The notes beneath the pieces are model-generated. The model was given only the letters and a program-made list of their open reading frames with translations. It ran no database searches and was not told the DNA's origin. Made by a program: the position numbers and the translations under genes. 64,000 bases of DNA, from assembly GCF_000526995.1 (NCBI RefSeq), contig NZ_AZUI01000001.1, positions 2,542,001 through 2,606,000 of the forward strand, written 5' to 3'. Source of the stretch: Lacrimispora indolis DSM 755 (GTDB lineage: Bacteria; Bacillota; Clostridia; Lachnospirales; Lachnospiraceae). Below are positions 17,141-22,318 of the stretch, piece after piece (position 1 is the stretch's first letter; every line of letters starts with the position of its first letter).

Positions 17141-17695
17141 ATGACAAAAACAAAGATAGCAAACATCCCTTATGGACCATATGTCGCTGTTTTAGCGGGT
17201 GCTACTGTAAAGGGAAAGCCCAATTATGCCACAATTGGAGCCTATGGAGTTGTAAGCCAGAAGCCTGTGCTTTACATTTCGTTGAAAAATTCCCATTATA
17301 CAACTGCCGGAGTTATAGAAAATGGATACTTCTCTGTAAACATTCCTTCTTCTGACGATATAGAAAAAACGGATTACTGCGGGACTGCCACGGGCAATCA
17401 AACAGATAAATCAAATGTTTTTGAGTCATTTTATGATGAAGCAGGAAAGGCGCCCATGATAAAGGAATGTCCGGTCAATTATCTTTGTAAGGTCATTCAA
17501 ACGATTCCTATATTTGATTTTACAATGTTTCTTGGTGAAATCGTTTCTGCTTATGCAGAGGAAGGCTGTTTGGAAAACGGAAGGCCGGATGCATTAAAGG
17601 TCAAGCCTACCATTTTAATGGACTCCGGGTATTTTGACTTAAGGGACAGAGTGGGTTCCATATTTCAATCGTGCAGCGGCAGCCGTTCCGTATGA
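17141..17695 (+). CDS. flavin reductase-like FMN-binding protein
   Basis: A 184-residue protein of the split-barrel flavin reductase family. It opens with IPYGPYVAVLAG, continues with a beta-rich KPVLYISLKNSHYT segment and has a NGYFSVNIPS turn, which form the FMN pocket. Such proteins bind FMN and often pass electrons from NAD(P)H to oxidoreductases or detoxify small molecules. GATAGGAG precedes the ATG. The MerR gene 70 bases downstream has its own promoter, so cotranscription is optional. Confidence 0.75.
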   Translation: MTKTKIANIPYGPYVAVLAGATVKGKPNYATIGAYGVVSQKPVLYISLKNSHYTTAGVIENGYFSVNIPSSDDIEKTDYCGTATGNQTDKSNVFESFYDEAGKAPMIKECPVNYLCKVIQTIPIFDFTMFLGEIVSAYAEEGCLENGRPDALKVKPTILMDSGYFDLRDRVGSIFQSCSGSRSV

Positions 17696-17713
17696 AAATT
17701 TTTTATAAAACTG

Positions 17714-17744
17714 TTGACATTCACGCGGCGTAATAGTTTATAGT
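17714..17744 (+). promoter_or_regulatory. MerR-type promoter with 19-base spacer
   Basis: TTGACA (17714-17719) and TATAGT (17739-17744) lie 19 bases apart with the dyad ACGC-G-GCGT between them. This matches autoregulation by the TipA-type MerR protein encoded next. Confidence 0.7.
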
Positions 17745-17767
17745 GGTTTTTGCAAGGAGGTGAAAAG

Positions 17768-18523
17768 ATGGAATACACCATTAATAAGCTGGCGAAACTG
17801 GCGGGGGTCAGTACAAGAACATTGAGGTATTACGATGAGTTAGGATTACTTACACCCGCCAGGGTCAGTTCCAATGGATATCGGATTTACGGACAAAAGG
17901 AGATCGATCGGCTGCAGCAAATCCTTTTTTACCGTGAGCTGGGGGTATCGCTGGAAGAAATCCGAAATATTCTGGATTCAAAGGACTTTGACGGACTTTC
18001 AGCGTTGGAAAGCCATTTGTCTGCCCTGCTTGCCAGGCGAAAGCAATTGGATCTGCTGGTCGCCAATGTAGAGAAAACCATTAAGGCCAAAAAAGGAGAA
18101 ATGATAATGAGTGATCAGGAGAAGTTTGAAGGCTTTCTTCAAAAGCTGGTGGATGATAACGAACGTCAATACGGGGAGGAAGCCAGGGAAAAATACGGGG
18201 ACGAAAGCGTCAGCCGTTCCAACGCCAAGGTTTTGAACATGAGCAAAGAACAGTATACTGAATTGGAAAAACTGACGTCAGATTTAAACGGGACATTAAA
18301 AGCAGCCTTTGAGCAAGGCGATCCGGCCGGAGAACTGGCACAAAAAGCCTGCGAGCTGCATAAAAAATGGCTGTGCTTTTATTGGGACGCTTACAGCAAA
18401 GAAGCCCATATAGGCGTGACCCAGATGTATGTGGACGATTCCCGCTTTACGGCGTATTACGATAAGATCGCACCCGGCTGCGCAGTATTTTTACGTGACG
18501 CGGTAGCAATATACTGCAAATAA
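17768..18523 (+). CDS. MerR regulator with TipAS ligand domain
   Basis: A 251-residue protein. Residues 1-75 are a MerR winged helix (INKLAKLAGVSTRTLRYYDE). A coiled coil follows to about 110, then a C-terminal helical domain of about 140 residues with the TipAS look (EKYGDESVSRSNAKV and a C-terminal globin-like bundle). TipAS domains trap thiopeptides and other small drugs and switch on efflux genes. ATG 17768 has AAGGAGG in front; an in-frame TTG 18 bases upstream is worse. It sits beside a drug efflux gene, but a terminator and a separate promoter lie between, so control of that pump is only a possibility. Confidence 0.85.
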   Translation: MEYTINKLAKLAGVSTRTLRYYDELGLLTPARVSSNGYRIYGQKEIDRLQQILFYRELGVSLEEIRNILDSKDFDGLSALESHLSALLARRKQLDLLVANVEKTIKAKKGEMIMSDQEKFEGFLQKLVDDNERQYGEEAREKYGDESVSRSNAKVLNMSKEQYTELEKLTSDLNGTLKAAFEQGDPAGELAQKACELHKKWLCFYWDAYSKEAHIGVTQMYVDDSRFTAYYDKIAPGCAVFLRDAVAIYCK

Positions 18524-18547
18524 CTTCATAGAAGGCGAAGGATAGAA

Positions 18548-18580
18548 AGCTCACTTGCTGAAAAGCAAGTGGGCTTTTTT
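18548..18580 (+). terminator. strong intrinsic terminator
   Basis: AGCTCACTTGCT pairs with AGCAAGTGGGCT around a GAAA loop and is followed by TTTTT. It ends the MerR gene. Confidence 0.85.
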
Positions 18581-18633
18581 CTGGATTAATGGGAGGGGTT
18601 TTTCTGGTATTTTATGGGATTCCATGCTCATCA

Positions 18634-18680
18634 GATCAGGTTAGCCTGATATGGTTCTATTTTTGAATATTAACCTGATC
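18634..18680. repeat. widely spaced inverted repeat
   Basis: GATCAGGTTA (18634-18643) is repeated inverted as TAACCTGATC (18671-18680) with 27 bases between. It lies between the MerR terminator and the efflux promoter, with no T-run, so it is not a terminator. It may be an operator pair or a relic. Confidence 0.5.
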
Positions 18681-18751
18681 AAGCAGCGGAGCGGAGGATC
18701 TGCCCCCTGGTCAGTGAGGATATCCGAATGACTTTCCTTAATTTTTGGAAA

Positions 18752-18781
18752 TTGACAATCATATATGACTCATGATAGAAT
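18752..18781 (+). promoter_or_regulatory. promoter of the macrolide efflux leader
   Basis: TTGACA (18752-18757) and TAGAAT (18776-18781), 18-base spacer. Transcription would start about 30 bases before the leader peptide start. Confidence 0.6.
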
Positions 18782-18818
18782 AACTTAAATTTGGTTAATA
18801 AAGGAGGGCATTCGTTCT

Positions 18819-18842
18819 ATGTATTCTGTTCGTTTAAGATAA
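18819..18842 (+). CDS. macrolide-sensing leader peptide MYSVRLR
   Basis: A seven-codon frame, ATG 18819 to TAA 18842, preceded by AAAGGAGGG at good spacing. The peptide MYSVRLR ends in the RLR motif. Known macrolide arrest peptides of this class (the ErmD leader and the Mef(E) leader, which contain SMRLR) stall the ribosome when erythromycin sits in the exit tunnel. The frame lies in a long 5' leader upstream of a Mef-like pump, with hairpins downstream. Predicted role: stalling changes RNA folding and lets transcription continue into the pump gene. Confidence 0.75.
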   Translation: MYSVRLR

Positions 18843-18870
18843 GCTGGCAATAAAGAAGCAGTTATATCAT

Positions 18871-19027
18871 CCACAAAGGTGGGCTTTTTTGTTATGCTTA
18901 TTTTACGAATTAAGACATGGATACGGGTGAAGTGTAGCTATCTGAGGCTATGCGTTTTTTCTCTAAGTCTTTTTAACGTTAATATGCAGACTAAAGCCCG
19001 CATTGGGGATTTTAGCCTGCATTTTTT
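18871..19027 (+). promoter_or_regulatory. transcription attenuator of the efflux gene
   Basis: A terminator is formed by TGCAGACTAAA (18985-18995) and its complement TTTAGCCTGCA (19011-19021), then six T. An earlier hairpin, CCAC-GTGG at 18871-18882, is followed by GGGCTTT (18881-18887). That GGGCTTT can pair with AAAGCCC (18993-18999), which overlaps the left arm of the terminator, giving an alternative anti-terminator fold. Two exclusive folds after a stalling peptide are the signature of ribosome-controlled attenuation. Confidence 0.65.
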
Positions 19028-19080
19028 ATTGCCAAAAATCAAGTGAAAACAACAATAAAAGGTGCAAGGAGAAAAAATAT

Positions 19081-20295
19081 ATGAAAAATAAAACTTTAAA
19101 ATGGAAACAAGCATTTTTTACCATATGGGCAGGACAGGCAATTTCACTTATTACCAGCGCCGTACTGCAAATGGCGATAATTTTTTATCTTACGGAAAAA
19201 ACAGGCTCAGCCATGGTGCTGTCAATTACTTCATTTGTTGGATTTCTGCCGTACGCAGTCCTTGGGCCTGTGATCGGTGTATTCGTTGACCGTTATGATA
19301 GAAAGAAGATCATGATTGGTGCTGATTTGATGATTGCTGCCGCAGGTGCAGTGCTGGCTGTTATTGCTTTGTATAGTGAGTTATCGGTTTGGATGGTTAT
19401 GGCAGTTCTGTTTATCCGGAGTATTGGGACAGCGTTTCATTCTCCCGCATTAAGCGCAGTTACGCCCCTGCTGGTACCGGAAGAGCAGCTGACCAGATGC
19501 GCAGGTTACAGTCAGTCTTTACAGTCTGTGAGCTATATTCTCAGTCCTGCTGCAGCTGCATTTTTATATTCTGTCTGGGAATTGAATTCGATTATAGCCA
19601 TGGACGTGGCTGGCGCAATCATTGCATGCATTACGGTAGGTCTTGTACCTATTCCCAGACCTTGTGTTGAGGAGCAAAGACCAAAGCAGAATTTTATGAG
19701 GGAAATGAAGGAAGGATTTGCTGTTTTAAGAGAAAATAGAGGGTTATTTGTGCTGCTGCTTATAGGCACACTGTATATGTTTGTCTATATGCCGATTAAT
19801 GCACTTTATCCTTTGATCAGCATGGAATATTTTGGCGGAACACCGGTGCATGTCTCTGTTACTGAAATTGCTTACGCTTCCGGTATGCTGGCAGGTGGTT
19901 TGATATTAGGACTGTTTGGCAATCTGAAAAAGAGGGTCTCATTTATAACAGCTTCTATTTTTATGATGGGATTCAGTTTGACCATCTCGGGATTGCTGCC
20001 TCCAGGCGGATTTGCCGTATTTGTAATCTGCTGCGCAGCGATGGGTCTTTCCGTTCCCTTTTACAGCGGTATTCAAACGGCTCTTTTTCAAGAGAAGGTG
20101 AAGCCTGAATATTTGGGACGTGTGTTTTCTCTGACAGGAAGCATCATGTCTTTGGCCATGCCCATTGGTCTGATCCTCTCAGGATTTTTTGCAGATCGGA
20201 TTGGTGTAAACCATTGGTTTTTCCTGTCAGGTATTTTAATAATCGGAATTGCAGTCATTTGCCTGATGGCAAGTGATGTCAGAAAGCTGGATTAA
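19081..20295 (+). CDS. mef-like: Mef-like macrolide efflux MFS transporter
   Basis: A 404-residue major facilitator with 12 predicted membrane helices. The N-terminal stretch (WAGQAISLITSAVLQMAIIF), the loop motif GVFVDRYDRKKIM (MFS motif A) and the end (IGVNHWFFLSGILIIGIA) closely match what I remember of Mef(A)/Mef(E), which pump 14- and 15-membered macrolides out with proton motive force. Length is also the same. The start ATG 19081 has AAGGAG in front; an in-frame TTG at 19003 would lie inside the terminator and is rejected. Expression is probably induced by macrolides through the leader peptide. No msr(D)/mel ABC-F partner follows, unlike in the mega element. Confidence 0.88.
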   Translation: MKNKTLKWKQAFFTIWAGQAISLITSAVLQMAIIFYLTEKTGSAMVLSITSFVGFLPYAVLGPVIGVFVDRYDRKKIMIGADLMIAAAGAVLAVIALYSELSVWMVMAVLFIRSIGTAFHSPALSAVTPLLVPEEQLTRCAGYSQSLQSVSYILSPAAAAFLYSVWELNSIIAMDVAGAIIACITVGLVPIPRPCVEEQRPKQNFMREMKEGFAVLRENRGLFVLLLIGTLYMFVYMPINALYPLISMEYFGGTPVHVSVTEIAYASGMLAGGLILGLFGNLKKRVSFITASIFMMGFSLTISGLLPPGGFAVFVICCAAMGLSVPFYSGIQTALFQEKVKPEYLGRVFSLTGSIMSLAMPIGLILSGFFADRIGVNHWFFLSGILIIGIAVICLMASDVRKLD

Positions 20296-20346
20296 TCAAT
20301 AAAAAACTTATAGGAGGAGGTGATATAAGTTTTTCATCAAAAGGTC

Positions 20347-20376
20347 TTGACACGATATATCTTTATGATATATTAT
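20347..20376 (+). promoter_or_regulatory. promoter and probable PadR operator
   Basis: TTGACA (20347-20352) and TATTAT (20371-20376), 18-base spacer. The spacer holds a perfect dyad ATATATC-N5-GATATAT (20355-20373), well placed for repression by the PadR protein encoded just downstream. Confidence 0.6.
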
Positions 20377-20407
20377 TGTGATATAAAAATAGACAGAAGG
20401 TGTACAG

Positions 20408-20971
20408 ATGAGAGAGAATGCTGGGAAATCAAAATACGTGATGCTGGGAATGCTTGCCCGCATGCCGCAGACCGGCTATACGATCAAAAAATGGCTGGAG
20501 AACGAATACAGCCATTTCTGGCAGGAGAGTTTTGGGCAGATTTATCCCACTCTTAAGAAACTGGTGGCTGAGGGACTGGCCGCCAGCTCCGATCGCACCC
20601 AGCCTGGAAATGGGCGGGGGCAGATCGTATACAGCATCACTGACGCAGGCAGAAAGGAGCTTTCAGACTGGCTGCGTGAGGAGCCTGAAATCGAGAAGAT
20701 AAGGTACGAAATATTACTCAAGATCTCCTTTGGTGAGAATACGGAGCCTGAGGTGCTGCTTGGACATCTGGACGATTTTATCAGAAGGAATGATAAGCTG
20801 GTCAAGGATATGAACGGCTATATGGAGCTTGTTGAGCAGTTCAAAGACAAGGATATTGACTGCTCCTACAGTAAGCTGACCGCGCTCTGCGGCGTTTATA
20901 TATATTCTGCAATGAGGGATTGGGCTGTTGAGGCAAAGAAAGTCATTTCAGGGAAAGAAGCTGATCAATAA
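20408..20971 (+). CDS. PadR family transcriptional regulator
   Basis: A 187-residue PadR protein: a winged helix in residues 10-95 (MLGMLARMPQTGYTIKKWL, then FGQIYPTLKKLVAEGL and a Gly-rich wing with YSITDAGRKEL), followed by a C-terminal helical dimerisation domain. PadR proteins usually repress a transporter or detoxification gene and their own gene. The neighbours are the efflux gene upstream and a flavodoxin 150 bases downstream. The operator in its own promoter fits autoregulation. Confidence 0.88.
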   Translation: MRENAGKSKYVMLGMLARMPQTGYTIKKWLENEYSHFWQESFGQIYPTLKKLVAEGLAASSDRTQPGNGRGQIVYSITDAGRKELSDWLREEPEIEKIRYEILLKISFGENTEPEVLLGHLDDFIRRNDKLVKDMNGYMELVEQFKDKDIDCSYSKLTALCGVYIYSAMRDWAVEAKKVISGKEADQ

Positions 20972-21121
20972 TATCCCATTGACAATGTAACTGTCAACTA
21001 TATAGAATGAGCTGGGAAGAGAGGAATCCCTCATTAAGCTTCCATTCATCTATATCACAAAAAGAATAAGCCAATAACCAGTTTTTCCTGGCTACAAACT
21101 TATTATACGAGGAGAATCGTT

Positions 21122-21601
21122 ATGAGCACTCTGGTTGTATATTTTTCATTTACTGGCAGCACAAAATTTATTGCAGAAAAGATTGCGGAAACTATGAACG
21201 CCGATATTGCCCAGTTAAAAACCAGCAAGGAATATCCGGCAGATGGATTTAAGAAGTATTTTTTTGGCGGAAAGAGCGTCATTTTTGGAGAGAAGCCGGA
21301 TCTGGTAAACGAGCCAATTGATTGGAACCGTTATGATACCATTATAATCGGAACGCCCGTCTGGGCAGGATCCTTTGCGCCGCCTATAAAAAGTTTTATC
21401 AGCCAATATAAAATCCGGGGCAAACGGATTGCGCTGTTTGCCAGTCACGGAGGAGGCGGAGCCAAAAAGTGCTTTGCAAAACTAAAAAAGGAGCTTTCCG
21501 GCAATGAATTCATCTGTGAGATAGATTTCGTGGAACCTAAGAAAAATCGTGAGGGAAATACTTCTAAAGCTGTTAAGTGGGCCAGGAGCATTGCCGTCTG
21601 A
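21122..21601 (+). CDS. flavodoxin-family protein
   Basis: A 159-residue protein with a flavodoxin fold. The N-terminal phosphate loop is FSFTGSTKFIAEKIA; GTPVWAGSFAPPIKSF supplies the 60s-like isoalloxazine loop and ASHGGGGAKKCF the 90s loop. It binds FMN and probably carries electrons or acts as an NAD(P)H-quinone or nitro reductase partner. GAGGAGA precedes the ATG. It stands alone between the PadR gene and a methyltransferase. Confidence 0.85.
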   Translation: MSTLVVYFSFTGSTKFIAEKIAETMNADIAQLKTSKEYPADGFKKYFFGGKSVIFGEKPDLVNEPIDWNRYDTIIIGTPVWAGSFAPPIKSFISQYKIRGKRIALFASHGGGGAKKCFAKLKKELSGNEFICEIDFVEPKKNREGNTSKAVKWARSIAV

Positions 21602-21715
21602 TAACCTGCATGTAATTGCCTGCCATAAACTGCCGCCTGTTGTTATGTGCCGTAAGCGGCCGGGGATAATTCAGGCTGACATCAGACCTTTATTAAGGTG
21701 GATTGGAGATGAATA

Positions 21716-22318
21716 ATGGGAAATACGGATAAGTTTGAGTTGATAGCTGATATATATGACACTCCTGAAAGGATCCGGATTGGAAAGGTGTCATCAAACG
21801 CCATTCGTGAATATTTGGCTGGTGCTGAGAACAAAAACGCCATTGACTTTGGCTGCGGAACAGGTCTTGTGGGCATGAATCTGCTGGATGATTTTAAATC
21901 AATACTGTTTCTGGATACATCACAAAACATGATTAACCAGGTAAATCAAAAGATTTCCGGCTCCAATGTACAGAATGCAGCTGCATTGTGCTTTGATTTT
22001 GAGAAGGACAGTCTTTCGGATTTGCAGACTGACTATATTTTTATGGTTCAGGTTTTACTTCATATCAGGGACTTTAAGTCAGTTTTATTAAAGCTGTATG
22101 ATGTTTTAAACCCGGGAGGGCATTTGATAATTATTGATTTTAACAAGAACCATGAAGTGGTTTCAGATCTGGTTCATAATGGTTTTGACCAGGAGAAGCT
22201 GGCAAAGGATTTATTAGAAATAGGATTTAAGCATATTCGGTCCAGAACATTCCATAAAGGCAGCAATCTGTTTATGGGCCGTGATGCGTCCTTATTCATA
22301 CTTGATTCGCAAAAATAA
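21716..22318 (+). CDS. class I SAM-dependent methyltransferase
   Basis: A 200-residue methyltransferase with motif I AIDFGCGTGLVG (near residue 42), an acidic residue after beta-2 (LFLDTSQNM) and motif IV FMVQVLLHI. PGGHLIIIDF follows as the post-motif block of UbiE/COQ5-like enzymes. The substrate is unknown. The start ATG 21716 has GGAG in front. It may be monocistronic: over 100 bases separate it from the flavodoxin gene and a hairpin follows. Confidence 0.82.
   Translation: MGNTDKFELIADIYDTPERIRIGKVSSNAIREYLAGAENKNAIDFGCGTGLVGMNLLDDFKSILFLDTSQNMINQVNQKISGSNVQNAAALCFDFEKDSLSDLQTDYIFMVQVLLHIRDFKSVLLKLYDVLNPGGHLIIIDFNKNHEVVSDLVHNGFDQEKLAKDLLEIGFKHIRSRTFHKGSNLFMGRDASLFILDSQK

Follow-up and report, generated by a model that had tools for sequence, protein, structure and literature searches.

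A mef gene on the chromosome of Lacrimispora indolis DSM 755 is very probably controlled by ribosome-mediated transcription attenuation, through a leader homologous to that of mef(E)/mel. The stretch analyzed here (the window, 64,000 nucleotides) has its mef locus on a single contig of 6.38 Mb, and all features described below lie on the plus strand. The leader carries a promoter-like site at 18752-18781 (TTGACA-18-TAGAAT, with a TG before the second hexamer), which matches the consensus at 11/12 positions. Such a match by itself counts for little, since a scan of 2.8 kb yielded 9 promoter-like sites, with 6.6 expected; TTGACA also stands at the corresponding position in the congener G011. The Shine-Dalgarno sequence AAAGGAGGG (18800-18808) is followed by a seven-codon ORF encoding MYSVRLR (18819-18842, ATG to TAA), which carries the +x+ arrest motif Arg-Leu-Arg, so that both the short ORF and the strong ribosome site claimed by an earlier sequence-only reading are present.

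The whole attenuator (18819-19029) matches Rfam family RF02862 (sRNA_1300) over model positions 1 to 231. On the basis of the predicted folds, we assigned strand 1 (18845-18861, dIR1 of the published model), strand 2 (R2, 18872-18897), a hairpin between strands 2 and 3 that is common to both folds (18932-18953), strand 3 (the 5' arm of the terminator, 18984-18999), and strand 4 (its 3' arm and U-run, 19006-19027). The element dIR2 (19017-19034), with which strand 1 is predicted to pair in the ON fold, consists of the end of the terminator arm, the U-run, and the bases beyond. The pump gene (19081-20295, product P0001 of 404 amino acids, a Mef(A)-family MFS efflux pump by its profile matches) has an SD-like sequence, GCAAGGAG, starting at 19064. 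We took the ATG at 19081 as its start, the 430-amino-acid ORF from 19003 being merely the longest open frame. Downstream lies a PadR-family regulator gene (20408-20971, PF03551) with a promoter-like site of its own (20347-20374), occupying the place of msr(D) in mobile mef elements. The upstream neighbor (17768-18523) encodes a MerR regulator with a TipAS antibiotic-recognition domain (PF13411 and PF07739). This gene adjoins the pump gene yet persists in congeners devoid of the pump, and its product is therefore probably not a dedicated regulator of the pump.

The pump scored 742.3 bits against the NCBIfam Mef(A) model NF000245 (curated cut-off, 675) and 393.5 bits against TIGR00900 (cut-off, 319.6), and it also matched PF07690. 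It missed the curated cut-offs of Mef(B) (295 of 800 bits), Mef(C) (245 of 870), and Mef(En2) (215 of 800). The likeness to Mef(A)/Mef(E) noted earlier is thus borne out, and the protein belongs to the Mef(A) family. Its identity to the plasmid Mef(A) of locus L007 is 77%. Mef proteins keep the same letter if they are at least 80% identical to Mef(A), and by this rule the pump would receive a letter of its own. Between the window and G011, the dN/dS of the pump is 0.084. Searches with the pump found nothing in IMG/VR and no PDB sequence match at an E value of 0.001. Its assignment to the MFS fold is nevertheless beyond doubt. The genus contains six further Mef homologues of 49 to 50% identity, one of them in this genome, and under our filter none of the six is preceded by an RLR-type leader.

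The gene that follows the pump gene is padR, and the msr(D) expected directly downstream in a mef/msr(D) operon was not found there. By tblastn, the window contained no msr(D) match of over 35% identity, and the strongest match in the whole genome (33% over residues 87 to 459 of 487) leaves only distant ABC proteins, in line with the earlier claim that the gene has no msr(D) partner. At this site, mef would work without msr(D).

The leader RNA was more stable than its shuffled versions (z = -5.06; 0/200 equally stable). Its minimum free energy fold contained a predicted intrinsic terminator at 18984-19027 (hairpin, 18984-19022; U-run, 19022-19027), matching the one proposed earlier at 18985-19027; this terminator was absent from the list of a simple pattern scan. 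When the free RNA was folded from a 5' end at 18785, 18849-18859 paired with 18883-18893 and the terminator formed (1:2 plus 3:4, OFF). Masking the ORF and the next two bases, which imitates a stalled ribosome, led to pairing of 18845-18861 with 19017-19034 and of 18872-18897 with 18986-19007 (1:4 plus 2:3, ON). The terminator probability dropped from 0.88 in the unmasked RNA to 0.00 with the ORF masked, and masking of 7 bases past the ORF abolished the terminator as well. Among 200 controls with a shuffled middle, 196 formed the terminator when unmasked and 1 switched, so that competition between terminator and anti-terminator is found in the predicted folds with a shuffle control. The two exclusive folds of the sequence-only reading can thus both form in prediction. 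Its anti-terminator (18881-18887 with 18993-18999) appeared with exactly these pairs in the ORF-masked fold, but the structure is larger: the pairs represent the inner helix, which is enclosed by the dIR1:dIR2 helix of the published model. The balance between the folds depends on the unmapped 5' end, since an RNA begun at 18799 instead of 18785 adopted the ON state even unmasked.

We then asked how far these structures are kept among 31 distinct mef leaders, of which 27 were aligned (the near-copies L029, L030, L047, and L065 were left out). Paired cells amounted to 87.7% in the outer ON helix, 73.6% and 88.9% in the inner helices, 80.9% in the terminator, and 93.8% in the 1:2 stem. Taken together, ON-fold pairs were kept in 81.8% of the cells, versus 37 to 51% when slid, and sliding the whole ON and OFF structures by 1 to 3 columns left 35 to 51% of the cells paired. 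The covariation score of the ON fold was 0.175, compared to at most 0.101 for the slid versions, and none of 500 shuffles scored as high. Pairs changed on both sides were no more common than in the slid controls (ON, 15 versus 11 to 15; OFF, 20 versus 11 to 21), and a claim of strong covariation was dropped for this reason.

Equilibrium folding was applied to 31 mef leaders, a full switch being defined as a terminator probability of at least 0.5 unmasked that falls to 0.3 or less with the ORF and 2 bases masked. Ten leaders switched fully (8 did with 7 bases masked), 13 had a terminator probability below 0.5 already when unmasked, and 8, including G011, kept the terminator though masked. We rejected equilibrium folding as proof of switching, as it is too blunt: in the MTASMRLR type, which is proven by experiment, 9 of 11 leaders were below 0.5 even unmasked. 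The folding set left out our own duplicates (L001, L011, L036, and L040), L013 (same as L002), four loci with a missing, unclear, or shortened leader or one lying outside the contig (L017, L024, L048, and L050), and L034, which was restored in the list of 31 distinct leaders. L010 and L012 were entered once, as G011, and the L069 leader, which has no T-run, gave no result. The non-mef leaders L004 and L005 did not switch in equilibrium folding.

From the anatomy, homology, conservation, and foldability of both states, we infer the start site, stalling, inducer, read-through, and efflux as follows. In the absence of drug, ribosomes would complete MYSVRLR, strand 1 would pair with strand 2, and the terminator at 18984-19027 would form, so that transcription would yield only a leader RNA some 240 nt long. 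A ribosome carrying a 14- or 15-membered macrolide or a ketolide would stall at Arg-Leu-Arg, thereby masking the foot of the 1:2 stem. The 5' arm of the terminator would then be captured by strand 2, strand 1 would pair with the U-run and the following bases, and RNA polymerase would proceed into the pump gene. The inner helix may be the kinetically important part, because it could block the terminator before the 3' arm has been made. For the homologous mef(E)/mel leader, transcription attenuation has been shown: a strain with an inactivated ribosome site is susceptible whether or not inducer is present, and in RNA-seq, transcripts terminate when macrolide is absent and read through when it is present (PMC4335068).

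The window leader shares with the attenuator of mef(E)/mel and mef(A)/msr(D) (Mega, Tn1207), as described in PMC4335068, an RLR-ending ORF, dIR1:dIR2 alternative folds, a terminator, and a pump gene next to it; like the mef attenuator of RF02862, it has a 5' short ORF with a +x+ motif and a Shine-Dalgarno sequence ahead. It differs in being about 20 nt shorter, in the absence of msr(D), and in occupying a chromosomal site common to a congener rather than a mobile cassette. Moreover, its peptide has 7 residues, one fewer than MTASMRLR, with Val for Met, as had been pointed out earlier. ErmDL and ErmKL (MTHSMRLR...) also combine the +x+ motif with transcription attenuation, but their cargo is a methylase and not a pump, and the mef(E) and erm(K) leaders are stated to have no homology beyond the peptide (PMC4335068). 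Similarly, rli80-hflXr of Listeria has an RLR leader ORF and transcription attenuation, whereas its peptide has 14 residues and its cargo is a ribosome-splitting factor (PMC6310831).

We consider it unlikely that the attenuator works but senses another ribosome-directed drug or stress, with the pump exporting another substrate. The substrate of the pump is here a presumed one, and in ErmDL, RLR is reported to dominate the arrest with telithromycin and to be dispensable with erythromycin, the N terminus contributing to erythromycin arrest (PMC8298421). Given this role of the N terminus and a peptide that is one residue shorter, the range of drugs that act on the 7-residue MYSVRLR may be different, and a response to erythromycin is not assured. 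However, leader and pump are homologous over their whole length to the macrolide system, which argues against this alternative.

Leaders were read upstream of Mef homologues that aligned over more than 250 residues at 40% identity or higher. MYSVRLR or MYSIRLR precedes such homologues in Lutispora, Anaerosolibacter, Clostridium homopropionicum, and further genomes. The 31 distinct leaders kept, a set without L004, L005, L037, and L069, comprise MTASMRLR (11), MYSVRLR (6), MTASIRLR (3), VLIFVR (3), and MYSIRLR (2), together with single cases of MTHSVRLR, MIFSIRLR, MLYSRLR, MLYSVRIR, VLICVR, and a shifted frame (L034); L037 (MYSVRLR) was folded and not aligned. L034 is a relative with msr(D) in which the frame of the leader ORF is shifted and a different short peptide is encoded. 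Upstream of Mef homologues of 58 to 59% identity (L039 and L054-L064), we observed a putative leader, [V/M]-L-I-[FC]-V-R, with a GTG start, a good Shine-Dalgarno sequence, and a similar layout, which resembles the MsrD leader MYLIFM. An IMG/VR scan for exact matches to the MYS-type leader pattern found nothing.

By tblastn (over 35% identity), msr(D) was found next to the pump gene in the MYS-type loci L021, L022, and L070, and in L034. It was absent at the window, G011, L023, L027, L037, and L067 within the at least 1.5 kb available. The lack of msr(D) is therefore true of the window locus but is no trait of the MYSVRLR class. The gene was also absent within about 1.5 kb at the MTASMRLR loci L002, L029, L048, and L066, and the invariable position of mef ahead of msr(D) stated in PMC4335068 thus seems not to be generally valid. 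The type of device is already known; the novelty lies in the MYS[VI]RLR class of leaders and in a locus that is chromosomal and lacks msr(D). In the non-subscription literature, we found no earlier description of MYS-type or chromosomal mef leaders, and five variant peptides searched as text gave no result.

In G011, the leader ORF is identical at 24/24 bases, compared to 153/190 in the remaining leader and 49/67 in the promoter stretch, making the ORF the best conserved part; together with the MYSVRLR and MYSIRLR leaders of other genomes, this bears out the expected conservation of the ORF in relatives. The order in G011 is the MerR-TipAS gene (89% identical), the leader, an IS200-like insertion, the pump gene, and the PadR (79%) and flavodoxin (80%) genes. 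The insertion (Y1_Tnp, PF01797, 106.7 bits; L010) lies directly behind the U-run of the terminator and cuts the last bases of dIR2, so that about 0.8 kb separates leader and pump gene. The MerR-TipAS gene was found at an E value of 1e-60 in 7 of the 25 genus genomes examined, that of the window included. Two of the seven carry the leader and pump, four have PadR adjoining and no pump, and one (G014) has neither pump nor PadR within the 1.5 kb examined. In an unrooted tree built from three proteins of the flanks, the window and G011 are split from the four pump-less species at 96/96. A single gain or a single loss thus explains the distribution in the genus, and mef probably already occupied this site when the lineages of the window and G011 diverged.

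It is quite unlikely that the locus is instead a mobile mef that was acquired recently and lost its msr(D). The four congeners with the neighboring genes and without the pump would fit such an event, as would the congener G001, whose mef has an MTASMRLR leader and belongs to the mobile branch. However, in G011, leader and pump occupy this very site with identical genes-in-order on either side, one event suffices for the 96/96 split, and the identity of the G011 pump to the window pump (84%, 341/404 residues) falls inside the 79 to 92% of the neighbors. Furthermore, the G+C content of the pump gene is 0.435 versus 0.447 for the window, and the six proteins scanned from 17141 to 22315 included no member of a mobility family; carriage by a transposon, prophage, or plasmid was not found at the window locus. 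Finally, the window and G011 pumps pair at 100/98 in a tree of 41 pumps.

Pump trees were built from matches that had 380 or more aligned residues and an identity of 45% or higher, leaving out 18 duplicate or overlapping loci and, for the 41-pump tree, also L038. In the latter, the mobile MTASMRLR pumps fall in a branch of 18 rows (87/95) that nests in a 25-row fork with the window and most MYS-type pumps (88/90). L023 (MYSIRLR) stands outside this fork, in one of 27 rows (93/85), and the MLYSRLR, MIFSIRLR, and MLYSVRIR pumps branch still further out. This nested order favors MYS-like leaders as the older state. Several forks of the tree are open or weak, a single MYS clade holding 8 rows together was not rejected (p-AU, 0.145), and the MYSVRLR rows L037 and L070 sit in the mobile branch, L037 in the 41-pump tree only and not in the earlier one. 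The suggestion that MYS-type leaders are ancestral, in line with the possibly ancestral state proposed in the sequence-only reading, was dropped as unproven in view of the weak forks, the p-AU value, and rows such as L070. In L070, a MYSVRLR leader precedes a pump that belongs to the mobile MTASMRLR branch, and such rows point to recombination between leader and pump.

At 90.2 bits, 18819-19029 matched RF02862 ("Enterococcus sRNA 1300"; gathering cut-off, 48.8) over its full length, with an E value of 5.3e-19 over the window, and this was the sole Rfam match at gathering score there. The database search suggested earlier for leader and pump thus exceeded the cut-offs of both RF02862 and NF000245. 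The first bases of the RF02862 model, ACAGCcuCaaugCGuuUaagauaa, encode T-A-S-M-R-L-R-stop. Among 20 loci tested, plasmid leaders scored highest: 275 bits for L007, before mef(A)/msr(D), 266 for L009 (an Enterococcus faecium plasmid), before a partial mef match, and 252 for L008, before mef with pieces of msr(D). By sequence comparison, RF02862 is the mef transcription attenuator including its leader ORF, and sRNA_1300 most likely represents the terminated mef leader rather than a stand-alone small RNA. Although Rfam classes the family as "Gene; sRNA" and a discrete 230-nt transcript from a 60-kb genomic island was validated by Northern blotting in E. faecium (PMC5593968, whose main text nowhere contains the words macrolide, mef, or msr), it is highly improbable that the leader is an independent trans-acting small RNA and the pump gene has its own promoter, given that the model starts inside the leader ORF and stops just past the terminator U-run, like a prematurely terminated attenuator RNA, that 19027-19081 holds one promoter-like site of 9 of 12 in our scan, and that the match lies just upstream of mef in all 12 other matching loci with a full Mef (with the IS between in G011), before the partial mef in L009, and, for weaker matches of about 50 bits, before other cargo, again with a leader ORF.

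In 397 genomes of the family, RF02862 had 28 matches, 20 of them with the leader MLHSMRIR (L104:9582-11015, in G059; L004, L005, L083-L086, and L088-L101). At the one locus examined, that of G059, this leader precedes a gene for a Cys-rich KTR protein (PF14205) and an RlmN/Cfr-type radical SAM gene (TIGR00048, 277.6 bits, below the cut-off of 290), next to a sigma-70 region 4 gene and a serine recombinase gene. G059 has the same attenuator layout on a different, probably mobile, cargo.

Tentatively, the clostridial M-Y-S-[VI]-R-L-R attenuator might be the older form and the streptococcal MTASMRLR mef(A)/msr(D) cassette a mobilized branch of it, the RNA module being a portable drug-sensing switch that also serves other cargo (the RlmN/Cfr-type gene with MLHSMRIR). 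The natural variants MYSVRLR, MYSIRLR, MTASIRLR, MTHSVRLR, MIFSIRLR, MLYSRLR, and MLYSVRIR provide peptides with which the sequence rules of arrest by a drug could be tested. Overall, the locus of L. indolis would represent a chromosomal mef switch of the macrolide type, neither associated with mobile elements nor accompanied by msr(D).
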